This document shows, one piece after another, positions 3,524 through 55,830 of a stretch of DNA of 64,000 nt. Made by a program: the position numbers and the translations under genes. The notes under the pieces were generated by a model. It worked only from the letters and a program-made list of their open reading frames with translations, did no database searches and was not told where the DNA came from. The stretch is from Oceanimonas aquatica (GTDB lineage Bacteria; Pseudomonadota; Gammaproteobacteria; Enterobacterales; Aeromonadaceae): positions 62,001-126,000 of the forward strand of contig NZ_JAVBHX010000001.1 in NCBI RefSeq assembly GCF_030732065.1, in the 5' to 3' direction. The first letter of the stretch is position 1; each line of letters begins with the position of its first letter.

Positions 3524-4594
3524 ATGCAGAAAGACACATTGAACAATATTCATATTCAATCCGAGAAGGTGATGATCACCCCGGCGGAGCTCAAGGCCAA
3601 GCTGCCCATCTCGCAGAAGGCGCTGGATTACATCGGCCAGGCCCGCCAGACCATTTCCGATATTGTTCATCGCAAGGATCACCGCCTGCTGGTGATCTGC
3701 GGACCCTGCTCCATTCACGATATCGACGCAGCCAAAGAGTACGCAACCCGCCTCAAAAAACTGCATGATGAATACCGTGACAGCCTTTATATCGTAATGC
3801 GCGTCTATTTTGAAAAGCCGCGCACGACCGTGGGATGGAAAGGCTTTATCAACGATCCTCACCTCGACGGCAGCTTTGACATTGAGCTGGGTTTGCACAA
3901 GGCGCGCGAGCTGCTGTGCTGGCTGGCGGAGCTGGAACTGCCCCTGGCCACCGAAGCGCTGGATCCCATCAGCCCGCAATACCTGGCCGAGCTGTTCTCC
4001 TGGTCGGCCATCGGCGCCCGTACCACCGAATCCCAGACCCATCGGGAAATGGCCTCCGGCCTGTCGATGCCGGTGGGCTTCAAGAACGGCACCGACGGCA
4101 ACCTGGGCACCGCCATCAACGCCATGAAGGCGGCGGCCGAGCCCCATGCCTTTATGGGCATCAACCAGGAAGGTCAGGTGGCGCTGCTGGTGACTCAGGG
4201 TAACCCGGACGGCCACGTGATCCTGCGCGGCGGCAAGCACCCCAACTACGATTCGGTGAACATCGCCCTGGCGGAAAAGGCCATGACCGGCGCCGGCCTG
4301 AGCCCGCGGCTGGTGGTGGACTGCAGTCACGGCAACTCCAACAAGGACTACAGTCTGCAGCCGCTGGTAACCGAAAACGTGGTGCATCAGATCCAGGAAG
4401 GCAATCAGTCCATTCTCGGCATTATGCTGGAATCCCACCTGTTCGAGGGCAATCAGTCCAGCGAGCAGCCGGTTGGTGACATGCAGTACGGTGTCTCTAT
4501 TACCGACGCCTGTATCGGCTGGGATACCACCGCCGAGCTGCTGGCGAATTGCCATCAGCAACTGGCTGACGCCCTTAAGGCTCGGGTGGGCTGA
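3524..4594 (+). CDS. aroF: 3-deoxy-7-phosphoheptulonate (DAHP) synthase, AroF-like, type I-alpha
   Basis: A 356-residue enzyme that condenses phosphoenolpyruvate and erythrose 4-phosphate into DAHP, the first step of the shikimate pathway. It shows CGPCSIHD (metal-binding Cys62), KPRTT (98-102), the long GARTTESQTHREMASGLSMP segment and DCSHGNSNKD near the C-terminus, all typical of the AroF/G/H group. The N-terminus MQKDTLNNIHI closely resembles E. coli AroF, the Tyr-sensitive isozyme, and linkage to tyrA and a TyrR box supports this assignment. Feedback specificity is inferred from that resemblance. A GTGAGGA ribosome site precedes the ATG. Confidence 0.95.
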   Translation: MQKDTLNNIHIQSEKVMITPAELKAKLPISQKALDYIGQARQTISDIVHRKDHRLLVICGPCSIHDIDAAKEYATRLKKLHDEYRDSLYIVMRVYFEKPRTTVGWKGFINDPHLDGSFDIELGLHKARELLCWLAELELPLATEALDPISPQYLAELFSWSAIGARTTESQTHREMASGLSMPVGFKNGTDGNLGTAINAMKAAAEPHAFMGINQEGQVALLVTQGNPDGHVILRGGKHPNYDSVNIALAEKAMTGAGLSPRLVVDCSHGNSNKDYSLQPLVTENVVHQIQEGNQSILGIMLESHLFEGNQSSEQPVGDMQYGVSITDACIGWDTTAELLANCHQQLADALKARVG

Positions 4595-4634: not shown

Positions 4635-4666
4635 AAGGCGCCGGGCCTTGAGTGGTCCGGCGCCTT
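4635..4666 (+). other. Strong intercistronic hairpin between aroF and tyrA
   Basis: A 13-bp stem (5' arm 4635-4647, 3' arm 4654-4666, one G-U pair, 6-base loop TTGAGT) sits in the 90-base aroF-tyrA gap and ends 18 bases before the tyrA start. No T-run follows (CATTCTGGG), so it is unlikely to be an efficient intrinsic terminator. It could protect the aroF message from 3' decay or set the aroF:tyrA expression ratio. Confidence 0.5.
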
Positions 4667-4684
4667 CATTCTGGGATGGAATCA

Positions 4685-5815
4685 ATGGTAGATGAACTCA
4701 AGGTCCTGCGGGATCAAATCGATGAAGTCGATCAGCAGCTGGTAGAGCTGTTTGCCAGACGACTGAAACTGGTGGCCGGCGTGGGCGAAGTGAAGAGCCG
4801 CAACGGCGTGCCCATTTACGCTCCCGACCGGGAAGCGGCCATGCTGGCCAGTCGCCGGGCCGAGGCTGAGGCCCGGGGCGTGCCGCCGGATCTGATTGAA
4901 GACGTACTGCGCCGCTTTATGCGCGAGTCCTACGCCAGCGAAAAGGATACCGGCTTCAAGTGCGTTAACCCGGATCTGCGCAAGGCGGTAGTGGTCGGCG
5001 GCGGCGGCCAGCTTGGCGGTCTGTTTGCCCACCAGCTGACCCTGTCCGGTTACCGGGTTGAGGTGCTGGAAAAGGACGACTGGGAGCGGGCCGATACCCT
5101 GCTTGCCGATGCCGGCCTGGTGATGATCGCCGTGCCCATCGATCAGACGGTGGCGGTGATCGAGCGCCTACCGGCCCTGCCGCAAGACTGTTTGCTGGTG
5201 GATCTGACCAGCATCAAGAGCGAGCCGGTAGCGGCCATGCTCAAGGCCCATGCCGGCCCGGTGCTGGGTTTGCACCCCATGTTTGGCCCCGATGTGTCCA
5301 GCCTGGCCAAGCAGGTGATCATTCATTGCGAGGGCCGCGGTGCCGACCAGTATGAATGGCTGCTGGCACAAATTCGCATCTGGGGCGCCCGGCTGCAGGC
5401 GGTGCCCGCCGAGGAGCATGATGAGGCCATGAGTCTGGTGCAGGCGCTGCGTCACTTCACCAGCTTTGCCTATGGGGCGCATTTGTGTGCCGAGGGTGCC
5501 GATCTGGCCCAGCTGCTGCGCCTGAGCTCGCCCATTTACCGGCTGGAGCTGGCCATGGTGGGGCGGCTGTTCGCCCAGGATCCGGCGCTGTACGCCGACA
5601 TCATTTTGTCGTCACCCCGCAACCTGGCGATGATCCGTCGCTACCATGGGCGTTTCGGCGAGCTGCTGGATCAGCTGGAAAGTGGTCAGCGTGAGGCCTT
5701 TGTGAACCAGTTTGAAACCGTGAGCGCGTTTTTCGGCGACTATGCCGACACCTTCCTCAAGGAAAGTCGACTGCTGCTGGCCCAGGCCAACGACAGCCGT
5801 CATCACGCGGACTGA
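4685..5815 (+). CDS. tyrA: Bifunctional chorismate mutase / prephenate dehydrogenase (T-protein)
   Basis: A 376-residue fusion that turns chorismate into prephenate and then oxidatively decarboxylates it to 4-hydroxyphenylpyruvate, the tyrosine branch. The AroQ-type chorismate mutase helices span about residues 1-88. The NAD-binding dehydrogenase follows, with a [10 protein letters not shown] nucleotide loop near residue 103 and GLHPMFGPD near 198. The start at 4685 gives [16 protein letters not shown], which aligns with E. coli TyrA; an in-frame ATG at 4676 is also possible. It forms an operon with aroF and converges on pheA across a strong terminator. Confidence 0.95.
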
Positions 5816-5915: not shown

Positions 5916-7793
5916 TCAGTCGCGATACAGGCTGTGAGCCAGTTGCTCCAGGGCGGTGTCGTCGTCGCTCAGGGTCAGGCAGAAGCCGCTGACGCCGGCG
6001 GCATTGAGCGCCTCGCCCAGGCGGGGCAGGGCGGCGGTATCGCCACTGAGCCGGCTGACCAGCGGCAGGTGGGTCTGGCTGCCCAGCTCCAGCAGGCGCG
6101 CCAGGGGCAGCGCCTGGGTGTCCAGCAACGCCAGCTGCTGGTTGCCCTGATGCAGAATGTGCTGGGCCAGGCGCAGGCTGTTCTCGGGCTCGCCGGCCAG
6201 CTCCAGCAGCAGCGGCCGGGTACAGCGGCCGGCAGCGCTCACCAGCTCTTCATTGCCGGCGGCATCGGTACCCAGCAATAACAAGTCCACCGACTCGGCG
6301 GCCCTGTGTACCTGTTCGGCATTGCCGACCCGGGTCATGGCCGCCAGATCAAAGCGGGCGGCGGTGGTGCGCAACTGCTGCAGCCGTGCCAGGCCCTGCT
6401 CCGGCGTGACGCCGGTGAAGCAGTCCAGGGCCAGAACCTGGCCGCCCTGCTCCTTGATGCGGCGGGCGGCTTCCTGCAGCCGGGCCTCATCGGGCCAGCC
6501 CGCCAGCTCGGCGATCAGCAGCGGCTCGTCGCCGCCCAGGGTAAAGGGGCCCACCTGTACCTGGGTGTTGTCGGCCTTGTAATGACGGCTGTAACGCACC
6601 GGCTCGGTGCGCTCATCGCTCTGGGCCTGGTTCAGCAGCCGTGCCGGTATGCGGGTGGGCGCCACCTCGGCGCTGGGGTAGCAGCCCAGCACCTTGATAA
6701 AGCGGGTAATACGGCCCAGCTCCTTCATGGCGGCTTGCATGGCCTCGCTGTTGACGTTGGCGGCCACATCCACATAGAACATTTCTTCCCAGGGATTGCC
6801 GATAATGGGGCGGGATTCCAGCCTGGTCATGGTAATGCCATGACTGCGCAGCACTAGCAGGGCTTCCACCAGGGCACCGCTCTGCTGGCCGGTAGACATA
6901 ATAAAGCTGGTCTTGGCGGGGATCTGCCCGGCCACCTCTATGGGCTTGCGGGCCACCACGATAAAGCGGGTCATGTTCTGCTTCTGGTTGGCCAGGCCTT
7001 CCACCAGCGGAGTGAGGCCGTGCAGCGCGCCGCCGTCGGCACTGCCCAGGGCGGCCACGTCGGGGCGGTTCAGTTTGGCGACCTGCTCCATGGCATTGGA
7101 CGAGGCTGCGCAGAACTTCACTTCCAGCTTGCCCAGGCGCTCCAGGTACTGGGAGCACTGCTGGTAGGGCTGAGAGTGGGTATAGAGGGTCTTGATGTTC
7201 TCAACGCGGGTATCGGTGGCCACCAGCAGGCAGTGCTCAATGGGCTGGGTCAGCTCGCCCACAATGGACAGGCTGGTGTGCTGCATCAGATCGAAGACAT
7301 CGTTGATGGAGCCGGAGCTGGTGTTTTCAATGGGCAGAATGCCGTACTGGGCCTGGCCCGATTCTACTGTGTCGAAGATCTGCTGAAAGGTATCGCAGTT
7401 GTGCTCGACAAGCGGCGCCTGATAACGGGACAGGTATTTGCGCGCCGCCATGTTGGAGTAGGAGCCCTTGAGCCCGAGAAAGGCCACGCTGATGGCGGGA
7501 ACGCTGTCCTGAGGGTTAAGCAGATCCTGCAGCAGTGCCTGCTGGGACAGCACCGAATCCTCGATAACGGTTTGAAAGATGCGGGTCACAAAGTGGGCGT
7601 CGAGGCCGAGTTGCCGGCCCTGATTGACCAGCTCCACCAGCAGTGCCTGCTCCCGCTCCTGATCGCGAATGGGGCGCGGGTTTTCCAGTTTCGAGCGGGC
7701 CACGTCCAGGCTCAGGGCCTTGCGCTGGGCCAGCAGGCTGAGCAGCTCCCGGTCCAGGCGGGTGATCTTGCTTCGTATCTCGTCCAGGTTCAT
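5916..7793 (-). CDS. pheA: Chorismate mutase / prephenate dehydratase (P-protein) with an extra degenerate DAHP synthase-like C-terminal domain
   Basis: PheA makes prephenate and then phenylpyruvate. The 625 residues contain an AroQ chorismate mutase (about 1-90), a prephenate dehydratase (about 102-285, TRF motif 275-277) and an ACT domain with the Phe-binding elements GALV (306-309) and ESRP (326-329). That completes a normal P-protein near residue 380. After a linker, residues about 412-625 align by eye with type I-beta DAHP synthase: VGPFTLGGDEPLLIAELAG matches its entry strand, and later strands are collinear. The catalytic motifs GPCS, KPRT, KRG, CERG and DPSH are all lost, so this part is probably non-catalytic; a regulatory role is inference. 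Expression is controlled by the pheL attenuator. Codon use and GC content do not change across the fusion. Confidence 0.93.
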   Translation of the reverse strand: MNLDEIRSKITRLDRELLSLLAQRKALSLDVARSKLENPRPIRDQEREQALLVELVNQGRQLGLDAHFVTRIFQTVIEDSVLSQQALLQDLLNPQDSVPAISVAFLGLKGSYSNMAARKYLSRYQAPLVEHNCDTFQQIFDTVESGQAQYGILPIENTSSGSINDVFDLMQHTSLSIVGELTQPIEHCLLVATDTRVENIKTLYTHSQPYQQCSQYLERLGKLEVKFCAASSNAMEQVAKLNRPDVAALGSADGGALHGLTPLVEGLANQKQNMTRFIVVARKPIEVAGQIPAKTSFIMSTGQQSGALVEALLVLRSHGITMTRLESRPIIGNPWEEMFYVDVAANVNSEAMQAAMKELGRITRFIKVLGCYPSAEVAPTRIPARLLNQAQSDERTEPVRYSRHYKADNTQVQVGPFTLGGDEPLLIAELAGWPDEARLQEAARRIKEQGGQVLALDCFTGVTPEQGLARLQQLRTTAARFDLAAMTRVGNAEQVHRAAESVDLLLLGTDAAGNEELVSAAGRCTRPLLLELAGEPENSLRLAQHILHQGNQQLALLDTQALPLARLLELGSQTHLPLVSRLSGDTAALPRLGEALNAAGVSGFCLTLSDDDTALEQLAHSLYRD

Positions 7794-7830
7794 GAATAGG
7801 GCTTCCTTCCTCGCCAGACTGCGCGTGAAT

Positions 7831-7856
7831 AAAAAAAGCCTCCCGGTGGGAGGCTT
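7831..7856 (-). terminator. pheA attenuator (Rho-independent terminator in the leader)
   Basis: On the minus strand, AAGCCTCCC/GGGAGGCTT with a 3-base loop is followed by seven T's, between the leader peptide and pheA. An upstream GGGAGGC (7894-7900) can pair with the terminator's GCCTCCC arm as an antiterminator. The leader-coding segment 7921-7930 can pair over 10 bp with 7866-7875. Ribosome stalling at the Phe codons would therefore switch the structure. Confidence 0.88.
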
Positions 7857-7904
7857 GGCTGTTCGTCTTTCGCTTGTTTCTCGCCAGACCCTCGCCTCCC
7901 GGAT

Positions 7905-7949
7905 TCAGGATGCAAAAAAGAAGCGAAAGAAAAACAGATGTACCGGCAT
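7905..7949 (-). CDS. pheL: pheA operon leader peptide, Phe-rich
   Basis: A 14-codon frame reads MPVHLFFFRFFFAS, with six Phe codons in eight positions, directly upstream of a terminator hairpin and pheA. The E. coli PheL leader has the same kind of Phe run and sits at the same place between raiA and pheA. An in-frame TAA two codons upstream fixes the ATG as start; the ribosome binding site is weak (AGAG about 9 bases away). A possible promoter is TTGCCA at 8004-8009 with TATTTC 17 bases downstream, at low confidence. The peptide is a sensor of charged tRNA-Phe and not a functional protein. Confidence 0.88.
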   Translation of the reverse strand: MPVHLFFFRFFFAS

Positions 7950-8040
7950 GCTTTATGACTCTTGATTAACGCAACCCATAGAAATACTGAAAAGCGGCGG
8001 TGCTGGCAAGCGTTTTCCCGGCTTTTTGGCGGTTAACGGT

Positions 8041-8089: not shown

Positions 8090-8416
8090 TTACTCTTCTT
8101 CTTCCAGCACCGGCTGGGCGGTCTGGGTACGCTGGGCCAGGGGTTTTTCCGCGTAGCGGGTCAGCTGGCGTTCCAGCTTGTGGCCCAGATCGTTGATGGC
8201 GGCGTACAGGTTGTCGTCTTCTGCCTGGGCGAACAGGGTTTCACCGGGCAGGCCGGCACTGGCTTCCACCTGATAGTTAAGACCTTCCTTCTGGATCACG
8301 ACCTGGGGGTTAATCAGGGCGATCTGGCGCCGGTTGAGCTTCTCGAAGCGACTTTCAATCCGTTCACGAATCGCGGGAGTGATGTCGATAACATGGCTGG
8401 TAATGGCAATGGACAT
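8090..8416 (-). CDS. raiA: Ribosome-associated inhibitor RaiA (HPF/YfiA family, short form)
   Basis: A 108-residue protein of the ribosome hibernation factor family: ITSHVIDITPAIRERIESR at the N-terminus, the conserved LINPQVVIQKEG and NLYAAINDLGHKLERQL, and an acidic tail EEEE. The long C-terminal tail and the position beside pheL-pheA match E. coli RaiA (YfiA) better than Hpf. It binds the 30S decoding centre in stationary phase and blocks translation initiation without 100S dimer formation. A strong AAGGGGG ribosome site precedes the ATG. A CRP-like site lies upstream (8482-8497). Confidence 0.92.
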   Translation of the reverse strand: MSIAITSHVIDITPAIRERIESRFEKLNRRQIALINPQVVIQKEGLNYQVEASAGLPGETLFAQAEDDNLYAAINDLGHKLERQLTRYAEKPLAQRTQTAQPVLEEEE

Positions 8417-53095: not shown

Positions 53096-53790
53096 AAACT
53101 CAGCTCACTGGGTTGCCAGCAGGTGGCGGAAACGGGCGCATGTTGCAGCTCTTTGAGTTTATGCAGAAAGCGGGCACGCGGCCAGCTCACCACCCCCAGG
53201 CTTTGCAGGTGCGGGTTGGGCAGCTGGCAGTCCACCAGGGCGCCACCGTGGCGGGCAAAATGCCGGCACAACCCCAGCATGGCCAGCTTGGAGCCGTTGC
53301 TCACCAGGTGAAACATGGACTCGCCGCAAAACAGCCGGCCCAGACCAATGCCGTAAAGCCCGGCCACCAGTTGCTGTTCGTCCCATACCTCCACCGAATG
53401 GGCGTGACCCTGATGGTGCAGCCGGCAGTAGTTATGCTCGATATCGGGGGTGATCCAGGTGCCGGGGCCGTCTTCACGCAGCTCCCGGCAGTGGCGAATC
53501 ACCGCCTCAAAGGCATGGTTGACGGTCAGCCGGTAGCGGTTTTTGCGCGCCAGTTTGGCCAGGCTGCGGCTGACGTGCAGGGCGTCGGGCTGCAGCACGG
53601 CACGGGGATCCGGCGACCACCACAGCGGCGGCTGGGACTCGTCATACCAGGGAAAAATGCCCATGCGGTAGGCCAGCAGCAGCCGCTCGGGGCGCAGATC
53701 GCCACCCACCGCCAGCAGGCCCTCGGGATCAGCCAGGGCCGTGTCGGGATCGGGAAACCACAGCCGTTCATCCAGTTGCGTCAGGTACAT
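53092..53790 (-). CDS. aat: Leucyl/phenylalanyl-tRNA-protein transferase
   Basis: A 232-residue enzyme that adds Leu or Phe to proteins with N-terminal Lys or Arg, making primary N-degrons. Conserved: FPDPDTALADPEGLLAVGGD, YRMGIFPWYDESQPPLWWSPDPRA-type core, and GIGLGRLFCGESMFH. The GGAGT site lies 7 bases upstream. It is 14 bases downstream of a small ribbon-helix-helix gene and overlaps bpt by 4 bases; infA follows bpt on the same strand. Confidence 0.96.
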   Translation of the reverse strand: MYLTQLDERLWFPDPDTALADPEGLLAVGGDLRPERLLLAYRMGIFPWYDESQPPLWWSPDPRAVLQPDALHVSRSLAKLARKNRYRLTVNHAFEAVIRHCRELREDGPGTWITPDIEHNYCRLHHQGHAHSVEVWDEQQLVAGLYGIGLGRLFCGESMFHLVSNGSKLAMLGLCRHFARHGGALVDCQLPNPHLQSLGVVSWPRARFLHKLKELQHAPVSATCWQPSELSL

Positions 53791-53804
53791 GGTTTACTCC
53801 GGAC

Positions 53805-53975
53805 TCAGCGGGATGACTTCTGCCAGTCTTCGCCGGTTTTCTGCTCGATGTATTCACGAATGAACTGGCGCACTTTCTGGGACGGGGTCACGTCTTCTTC
53901 GGCGCAGAGTTGTTCAAACAGCGCCTTCTTGCGTGGGTCGATAAGCAGGGTCAGGCGGGCGGTTCTTTGCTCCAT
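53805..53975 (-). CDS. Ribbon-helix-helix (CopG-type) small protein
   Basis: A 56-residue protein. RTARLTLLIDPRKKALFEQLC, followed by VTPSQKVRQFIREYIEQ, is the beta-strand, helix, helix pattern of the RHH/CopG DNA-binding fold, which works as a dimer. GGAGG lies directly upstream of ATG 53975, which favours it over ATG 53993. No toxin-like partner is beside it. It could regulate the divergent SulP gene or aat; this is inference from position. Confidence 0.75.
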   Translation of the reverse strand: MEQRTARLTLLIDPRKKALFEQLCAEEDVTPSQKVRQFIREYIEQKTGEDWQKSSR

Positions 53976-54081
53976 ACTACCTCCGGGGTACATCACATGT
54001 TAATCATATTATCATTGAATGCGCTGCTGATGAGAATACAATCAAGGATTGTTCATGCCTTAACCCACTGCGGAGCCAGCC

Positions 54082-55830
54082 ATGTCCCATCGTGCCCACC
54101 TGTTTTCCCTTCGTCCCGGTCATGCCCTGGGAGAAGCCTGTCGCCGTGAGCCTTATGGCCGGGCCCAGCTGCTCAAGGATGTGCTGGCCGGGATCACGGT
54201 CGGCATTATCGCCATTCCGTTGGCCATGGCACTGGCCATCGCCAGTGGCGTGGCACCCCAGTACGGCCTCTATACCGCCATTATCGGCGGCTTTGTCATC
54301 GCTCTGACCGGCGGCTCCCGGCTCAGTATTTCCGGGCCCACGGCGGCCTTTGTGGTGATCCTTTATCCCATTGCGCAGAGCTATGGCCTGGGCGGCCTGT
54401 TGCTGGCCACCCTGATGGCCGGGGCCATGCTGGTGCTGATGGCGCTGCTGCGCTTGGGTCGGCTGGTGGAATACATTCCCGAGCCGGTCACCCTGGGGTT
54501 TACCGCAGGTATCGCCGTGGTCATTGCCGGCCTGCAACTAAAGGACTTTTTTGGCCTCACGCCCGGTGAGCTGCCCGAGGCCTTTGTGCCCCGTCTGGTG
54601 GCCCTGGCCGGGCACCTGCCGGCACTGCACTGGCCCAGTCTGCTGGTGGCCGGGCTGACCCTGGCCATCATGCTGCTCTGGCCCCGGCTGAAAACCGGTG
54701 TGCCGCCCCATCTGCTGGCGGTGCTGCTGGCCAGCCTGATGGCGGTCTGGCTGAATCAGCAGGGCCTGGGAATTGAAACCATTAGCAGCCGTTTCAGTTA
54801 CCTGTTGCCCGACGGCACGCAAGGGGCGGGCATACCACCGGTGTTGCCCGACTTTGTCTGGCCCTGGTTGCAGCCCGGCCCGCAGGGAGAAGCCATTGGG
54901 CTGAGCTGGCAGCTGATGCGGGATCTGCTGCCGGGGGCCTTTGCCATCGCCATGCTGGGAGCGATTGAGTCACTGCTGTGCGCCGTGGTGCTGGACGGCA
55001 TGACCGGCAAGCGCCACAGTGCCAACAGCGAGCTGCTGGGGCAGGGCATCGGCAACCTGATCGCCCCGTTTTTTGGCGGCATTCCTGCCACCGCAGCCAT
55101 TGCCCGCTCCGCCGCCAATTTCAGGGCGGGGGCGGTGTCGCCGGTGGCGGCCATGGTGCACGCCCTGGTGGTGCTGGCGGGGCTGGTGTTGCTGGCGCGC
55201 TTGCTGGCATACCTGCCCATGCCGGCCATGGCGGCGCTGCTGCTGGTGGTGGCCTGGAACATGAGCGAGGCTCCCAAGGCGGTGCATTTGTTCAGAACCG
55301 CGCCCAAAGGGGATTTGCTGGTGTTCCTGACCTGCTTTTCGCTCACCATCGTCTTTGACATGGTGATCGCCATTACCACCGGCATGCTGCTGGCTACCGT
55401 GTTGTTTGTAAAAAACATCGCCGACATGACCCGGGTGATCGACATCTCCCGTCATGAACGCATGGTGCCGCACGGAGTGCCGGCGGGCTGGGTGGTGTAC
55501 AAAATCAACGGGCCGCTGTTTTTTGCCGCCGCCGACAAGGTGTTCAGCGAGCTGGCGCTGCTGGTGCGTGAGCACAGGGGCGTGGTGTTGTATATGGACG
55601 CGGTACCGGTGCTGGATGCCGGCGGTCTGTCGGCACTGAACCGGTTTGTCGGCGAGTGTGGCCGCAACGGCATTGAAGTGGTGGTGGCGGATCTGCAGAC
55701 CCAGCCACTGAAAACCCTGGCCCGTGCCGGCATGACCCCGGTGAATGGCGAGTTGTCATTTTGTCCCACCCTGCAACGCGCGCTGGACTACGTGGCGCAA
55801 CACCAGCCGCCGGCGCCCCAAACCGCCTGA
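54082..55830 (+). CDS. dauA: SulP-family transporter, DauA (YchM)-like
   Basis: A 582-residue transporter with about 12-14 membrane helices and a C-terminal STAS domain (about 465-575). GITVGIIAIPLAMALAIASG, SGPTAAFVVILYP, AMLGAIESLLCAVVLDGMTG and VLDAGGLSALNRF track E. coli DauA closely; that protein carries C4-dicarboxylates at acidic pH and binds acyl carrier protein through STAS. Sulfate or bicarbonate remain possible substrates. The conserved STAS Ser of anti-sigma antagonists is replaced by Ala (LDAGG). It occupies the position of cydC/cydD in E. coli. CGGAG precedes the start. Confidence 0.88.
   Translation: MSHRAHLFSLRPGHALGEACRREPYGRAQLLKDVLAGITVGIIAIPLAMALAIASGVAPQYGLYTAIIGGFVIALTGGSRLSISGPTAAFVVILYPIAQSYGLGGLLLATLMAGAMLVLMALLRLGRLVEYIPEPVTLGFTAGIAVVIAGLQLKDFFGLTPGELPEAFVPRLVALAGHLPALHWPSLLVAGLTLAIMLLWPRLKTGVPPHLLAVLLASLMAVWLNQQGLGIETISSRFSYLLPDGTQGAGIPPVLPDFVWPWLQPGPQGEAIGLSWQLMRDLLPGAFAIAMLGAIESLLCAVVLDGMTGKRHSANSELLGQGIGNLIAPFFGGIPATAAIARSAANFRAGAVSPVAAMVHALVVLAGLVLLARLLAYLPMPAMAALLLVVAWNMSEAPKAVHLFRTAPKGDLLVFLTCFSLTIVFDMVIAITTGMLLATVLFVKNIADMTRVIDISRHERMVPHGVPAGWVVYKINGPLFFAAADKVFSELALLVREHRGVVLYMDAVPVLDAGGLSALNRFVGECGRNGIEVVVADLQTQPLKTLARAGMTPVNGELSFCPTLQRALDYVAQHQPPAPQTA

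Follow-up and report, generated by a model that had tools for sequence, protein, structure and literature searches.

A dead type I-beta DAHP synthase barrel at the C-terminus of Oceanimonas aquatica PheA, apparently maintained by selection acting on the face opposite its old active site

PheA of Oceanimonas aquatica, encoded in the window (the whole stretch of 64,000 nucleotides that was analysed), carries behind its P-protein part a domain that stems from the enzyme of the pathway's first step. Profile searches and predicted structure confirm that residues ~411-625 correspond to a type I-beta DAHP synthase barrel, and almost all of its active-site residues have been replaced. In the window lineage selection, acting on the face opposite the old active site, appears to maintain this dead domain. 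The reading that we favour, and hold to be somewhat probable, is that the domain has been retained as a folded pseudoenzyme module whose back face serves structure or allostery. The decay series over families, the single fused clade with repeated decay, and the move of selection to the back face are new here.

The pheA gene and its upstream region

The features of the gene and of the region upstream of it are as follows.

7829..7950, minus strand: Phe leader (attenuator) upstream of pheA; Rfam RF01859, 83.1 bits, gathering threshold 55
5916..7793, minus strand: pheA, a 625-aa P-protein with an extra C-terminal domain; open reading frame, Pfam, NCBIfam
7539..7778, minus strand: chorismate mutase (CM) domain, residues 6-85; Pfam CM_2, 7.3e-19
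6945..7487, minus strand: prephenate dehydratase (PDT) domain, residues 103-283; Pfam PDT, 6e-52
6669..6911, minus strand: ACT region with GALV and ESRP, residues ~295-375; NCBIfam, weak Pfam match, predicted fold
6564..6668, minus strand: linker, residues 376-410; low model confidence
5919..6563, minus strand: dead type I-beta DAHP synthase barrel, residues 411-625; profiles, active-site count, AlphaFold2, Foldseek

CM_2 and PDT lie in one chain and both score over the Pfam cut-offs, as in a bifunctional P-protein. An NCBIfam P-protein model covers residues 3-379; the score of PRK10622 is 573 bits, just under its cut-off of 577, and the Pfam ACT match at residues 305-360 is weak and below cut-off. 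The CM residues which we take to form the active site of that domain are invariant across a 25-row alignment of relatives, and TRF, GALV and ESRP (the last two presumably the ACT or Phe-binding motifs) are all present; the P-protein itself therefore looks functional. In the full-length predicted model (pTM 0.45), pLDDT is under 50 at residues 376-398. The extra stretch lies where the preliminary description had placed it, beyond the usual P-protein.

A Phe-rich leader peptide is readable within the Phe leader. Further upstream, a small open reading frame at 8090-8416 on the minus strand resembles by eye a ribosome hibernation factor of the RaiA/YfiA type.

Homology and predicted fold of the extra domain

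The isolated 214-residue stretch was matched by NCBIfam models PRK08673 (1.4e-12), PRK12595 (4e-11) and TIGR01361 DAHP_synth_Bsub (2.1e-10), all under their curated cut-offs; with TIGR01361 the score was 40.4 bits against a cut-off of 267.75, which places the domain outside the curated family. Pfam alone is weak on it (DAHP_synth_1, 0.0027, below cut-off). Among solved DAHP synthases, sequence matches were obtained with 5j6f (8.7e-9) and 1vs1 (1.4e-8). AlphaFold2, run on the domain alone with 12 rows, gave a model with pLDDT 92.0 and pTM 0.90, in which an N-terminal hairpin is followed by eight beta-alpha units. When the PDB was searched with Foldseek, the first 23 of the top 50 matches were DAHP synthases, with TM by query of 0.78-0.84; KDO8P synthases made up the remainder. 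Homology to type I-beta DAHP synthase and a predicted (beta/alpha)8 barrel with N-terminal hairpin thus go together. The preliminary description had read the stretch by eye as I-beta DAHP synthase, had proposed a profile search and structure prediction, and had named a different fold as the outcome that would speak against it; profiles, model and fold search all bear the reading out.

Loss of the active site in the window

Fifteen positions were scored, in GPCS, KPRT, QIGARN, KRG, CERG, DPSH and a later E and D, which we take to be the metal, PEP and E4P residues. The standalone enzymes of the order keep 15/15 in 18 of 20 cases and 14/15 in the other two. The window domain keeps one of the 15 and so does not have the site of an active I-beta DAHP synthase; the six motifs are indeed replaced, as had been noticed from the sequence. 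Two loops of the catalytic face may be pointed out.

6405..6428, minus strand: catalytic-face loop at the former KPRT place, residues 456-463
6105..6119, minus strand: catalytic-face loop beta6-alpha6, residues 559-563, with 5 residues against 15 in intact enzymes

Spread of the fusion

Among the window genome and 60 relatives surveyed, all 23 genomes of the window genus carry the domain, and the close loci belong to Oceanimonas, Oceanisphaera and Zobellella. Aeromonas P-proteins are short and without it; it is absent as well from other genera of the window family, from three f21 and four f16 genomes, and from G395 and G410. In a survey of the order (394 genomes) at least 71 clear fusions were found, and in one genus (g10) of family f6, which we infer to be Shewanella, 29 of 29 genomes retain the domain. 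These 71, together with 10 more genomes of the window genus, G023 and Aliagarivorans marinus, make up a set of 83 fused rows from nine GTDB families; since the Aliagarivorans marinus row and G179 have the same core and domain sequences, the 83 rows probably represent 82 genomes. That long P-proteins may exist in relatives, as had been supposed, is therefore the case. Two proteins stand outside the 83: G074, a strongly decayed fusion (686-aa frame) whose 71 bits fall under the 90-bit filter, and G110, with a 238-residue tail after the core and no match of the fused-domain model among the matches listed.

A survey of the class (369 genomes) gave 56 matched genomes, 55 of them outside the order, and none of these 55 showed a PheA fusion, G730 being partly masked. 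Three long frames outside the order were considered and rejected as far as visible: in G690 (592 aa) and G583 (510 aa) the frame just extends upstream of an ordinary DAHP synthase, and in G730 (994 aa) the upstream stretch is masked, so that the judgement concerns the residues immediately before the barrel. In a survey of the phylum (299 genomes) there were nine matched genomes, four of them from outside the order, and the frames of those four did not exceed 352 aa.

Two loci deserve separate mention. In Oceanisphaera psychrotolerans (L043, G012:C33:112572-114448) the PheA frame breaks into two overlapping open reading frames around residue 307, before the extra domain begins; this may be a real frameshift or an assembly error. 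In one f6 genus, L198 (G065:C1:142200-144700) has a partial, strongly decayed domain and L225 (G395) and L226 (G410) are short P-proteins, a pattern in which loss in progress is possible.

Decay series and common origin

Among the 83 fused domains, seven have all 15 active-site residues, 17 have 5-11 and 59 have 0-3. The complete ones occur in the window's own family (G023), in f15 (G050 and G093), in f16 (G111) and in f8 (G328, G363 and G412), and judging from their residues they are apparently trifunctional proteins.

In the domain tree the fused rows formed one clade against the standalone enzymes with support 100/99 (49 versus 20 rows; 12 versus 40), as expected of common descent with the Shewanella-type PheA/aroA-I-beta fusion. 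Within it, 37 decayed rows formed a branch at 98/88, which may reflect long branches attracting each other. The tree of the PheA core, with the domain left out, mostly follows families; fused and short forms are mixed on it (12 changes), and five changes are needed between intact and decayed forms. The core trees and the 49-versus-20 domain tree were built with roughly one third of the window-genus and f6 rows; the long-branch short rows G053, G038, G043 and G371 were dropped before the later core tree and its change counts, and G110, drawn as short in the core trees, was treated as a fused form when changes between fused and short were counted. One fused clade containing 15/15 relatives indicates that an apparently active fusion decayed, and more than once. 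The simplest reading would be one fusion with an active DAHP synthase, inherited and later lost or killed repeatedly. G023 sits on a long, unresolved branch of the core tree, so that whole PheA genes may also have been transferred between lineages.

Derived replacements at the dead sites are common to f6 and f10: K to E in 29/30 f6 and 13/13 f10 rows, and D to N in 28/30 and 13/13. This suggests that the barrel was already dead in their common ancestor, was inherited in that state and was still retained. In the window genus (g1) 22 of 23 rows have a gap at the K site, and N is absent from the D site (0/23). Its link to f6 and f10 therefore rests on the tree, and the lack of the D to N replacement counts against the reading that we favour.

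Selection on the dead domain

As a whole the domain is loosely held, about like the linker. Pooling nine disjoint pairs of the genus gave dN/dS values of 0.28 (domain), 0.08 (PDT+ACT) and 0.34 (linker); the medians over 121 pairs were 0.42 for the domain, 0.09 for PDT, 0.12 for ACT and 0.47 for the linker (the split frame of G012 was excluded from these sets). By structural element, with boundaries taken from the full-length predicted structure, dN/dS in the genus was 0.06 for back loops (5-95% range 0.03-0.08) and 0.42 for catalytic-face loops (0.31-0.54; pair bootstrap, 60 resamples), with strands at 0.21 and helices at 0.32.

Under neutral simulation on the genus tree, with an assumed substitution model and no indels, a stop arose on average in 18.9 of 22 tips and none of 200 runs was stop-free, whereas the observed domain frames have no stop in any of the 23 genus genomes. 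The domain is thus no ordinary pseudogene evolving neutrally with loss of frame, and the label "pseudogene" fits it poorly.

Conservation by element gave a similar picture. In 20 standalone enzymes and seven intact fused domains conservation is highest in the catalytic-face loops (0.78 and 0.84, respectively) and lower in the back loops (0.60 and 0.69). In decayed groups the order is inverted: back loops versus catalytic-face loops stand at 0.80 versus 0.38 in g1 (23 rows, p 9e-8), 0.63 versus 0.29 in f6 (30 rows, p 6e-5), 0.84 versus 0.62 in f10 (13 rows, p 1e-3) and 0.54 versus 0.21 in decayed f8 (4 rows, p 7e-4); the f13 group (3 rows) is too small for this comparison. Since f6, f10 and g1 may go back to one dead ancestor, the four inverted groups would then not be four independent cases. 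The conserved back loops in the window include the following.

6438..6449, minus strand: back loop QGGQ, residues 449-452
6213..6224, minus strand: back loop CTRP, residues 524-527
6135..6149, minus strand: back loop QGNQQ, residues 549-553

The main rival to a functional module is that selection acts for folding. The domain would then be a slowly decaying remnant with no function of its own, kept since a misfolded tail would harm PheA, an explanation not far from the term "pseudogene" used in print. In TIM barrels the back loops are possibly conserved for folding alone, and this counts against the reading that we favour, as do the nearness of the domain's dN/dS to that of the linker and the several lineages without the domain; strands and glycine/proline turns are also among the conserved positions. 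However, the back loops equal or exceed the strands in conservation in all four decayed groups, which plain folding constraint does not obviously predict, and in the genus they are constrained like the PDT+ACT core. Moreover, truncation would be a cleaner escape from a harmful tail, short P-proteins working in relatives, yet 23/23 genomes of the window genus and every g10 genome have kept the domain. On this evidence a mere remnant is rather unlikely, but it is the alternative to be taken most seriously.

I-alpha DAHP synthases and gene neighbours

Two genes of the same pathway lie beside pheA, on the opposite strand.

3524..4594, plus strand: neighbouring active-type I-alpha DAHP synthase (AroF-like); NCBIfam PRK12755, 561 bits, over cut-off
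4652..5815, plus strand: tyrA, chorismate mutase-prephenate dehydrogenase; NCBIfam PRK11199, 615 bits, over cut-off

The window genome has three I-alpha DAHP synthases, by best NCBIfam model an AroG-type, an AroH-type and the PRK12755 neighbour. The preliminary description had suggested that the dead domain provides allostery or a docking surface for the active DAHP synthase next door. The first part is consistent with our results, which fit allostery or a contact surface. For docking to the adjoining AroF or another I-alpha enzyme, the accessible text on chorismate mutase-DAHP synthase complexes (PMC4281200) offers a precedent, and pheA and aroF are adjacent in the window. But adjacency does not track the domain: G054 lacks the domain and has an I-alpha gene beside pheA (C12:51297-52313 and 53521-54645), whereas G045 has the domain and its sole I-alpha gene is ~2 Mb distant. 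Adjacency was therefore rejected as support, and since I-alpha and I-beta barrels are also different subfamilies, docking of this kind is improbable. Continued catalysis of DAHP synthesis, or of a new reaction in a remodelled site, is more improbable still: the predicted barrel fold is kept, but a single scored position remains, and the catalytic-face loops are shortened and form the least conserved class in the genus, with no new site visibly held.

Across 31 genomes the active-site score tends to be lower where more I-alpha DAHP synthases are present (rho -0.61, p 2.7e-4, kinship uncorrected), which is consistent with redundancy of I-alpha enzymes permitting decay. G328 is an exception, with 15/15 despite three I-alpha enzymes, and in the f10 and f21 genomes examined the domain is decayed although there is a single I-alpha enzyme.

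Absence of an AroG-type (Phe) isozyme was also considered as a reason for kept activity and was found only partly consistent. By best NCBIfam model, an AroG-type enzyme is missing from G023, G050, G093 and G111. It is present, however, in G328, G363 and G412, the f8 genomes with intact domains, and G045 and G056 lack it although their domains are decayed. This survey took in 20 I-alpha proteins of nine genomes, with all copies classified except in G281 (one of two); the third copy of the window genome was classified separately (PRK12755).

Proposed role of the domain

A dead site on a fold that is under selection is the pattern of a regulatory pseudoenzyme, and the supposed pseudo-enzyme copy of the pathway's first step does behave, by its active-site count, fold and selection, like a retained one. 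Thermotoga-type DAHP synthase is regulated by an ACT-like domain. Standalone enzymes have a barrel that begins at residue 81-127, behind an N-terminal domain, and in the intact fusions it comes after the ACT domain of PheA, via the linker; Foldseek aligns the full-length model to Thermotoga DAHP synthase over ACT and barrel, with large rmsd. This Thermotoga-like order of ACT and then barrel suggests a shared Phe sensor in the ancestor.

The ancestor may thus have been a trifunctional CM-PDT-ACT-DAHPS protein, its barrel having no N-terminal regulatory domain of its own and being placed after the Phe-sensing ACT domain of PheA, so that one ACT sensor could govern the pathway's first step together with the Phe branch. 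Catalysis would subsequently have been lost in several lineages; the catalytic-face loops, freed of constraint, would have shortened in the window genus while the module was retained. The back (alpha-to-beta) loops, now under the strongest constraint, would be the contact surface, most likely within the PheA oligomer, where they may steady or tune PDT/ACT. That the dead domain probably descends from a working fusion is a point missing from the preliminary description. The fuller scheme, a living series from a trifunctional enzyme under Phe control by ACT to a dead barrel acting through its back as an allosteric part of PheA, is put forward tentatively, as possible rather than probable.

What was noted 20 years ago as a "bizarre" pseudogene may be a natural experiment, with apparently one fusion and complete, intermediate and dead homologues. 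Such a series would let one test how a catalytic domain becomes non-catalytic, whether one ACT domain controls two distant pathway steps, and whether selection shifts from the catalytic face to the back of a barrel upon loss of catalysis.

Comparison with known systems

The closest known case is Shewanella oneidensis, in which an AroQ-PheA fused to a "bizarre" aroA-I-beta pseudogene was reported (Song et al. 2005, PMC1173090); the accessible text counts the fusion among evolutionary events and gives the origin of the pseudogene as unknown. As far as that published description allows comparison, the architecture is the same and the domain is the same by homology. The present results go beyond it in the nine GTDB families, the complete-site members, the one fused clade and the selection on the dead domain; among the open-access papers listed by the literature searches no report was found of complete-active-site members, of the family spread or of selection on the domain.

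First-step and branch-step enzymes are also joined in Geobacillus (5j6f), Listeria (3nvt), P. gingivalis (PMC12202928) and M. tuberculosis (PMC4281200), and the accessible parts of the latter two papers describe cross-talk between the domains of such DAHP synthase-chorismate mutase fusions or complexes. In those systems the DAHP synthase is active and the domain order is another, whereas here the barrel follows CM-PDT-ACT and is dead in most members. A regulatory domain ahead of the same barrel fold is found in Thermotoga maritima (1rzm/1vr6) and in the chimeric DAH7PS 4grs; unlike there, the domain ahead of the barrel here belongs to PheA.

HisZ is a catalytically dead regulator. The trypanosome prozyme, according to the accessible text of PMC5201418, is likewise a dead enzyme fold retained in a non-catalytic role beside an active biosynthetic enzyme. 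The dead barrel of PheA, a putative regulator, differs from prozyme and HisZ in being a fused domain and in stemming from an enzyme that acts at a different step of the same pathway.
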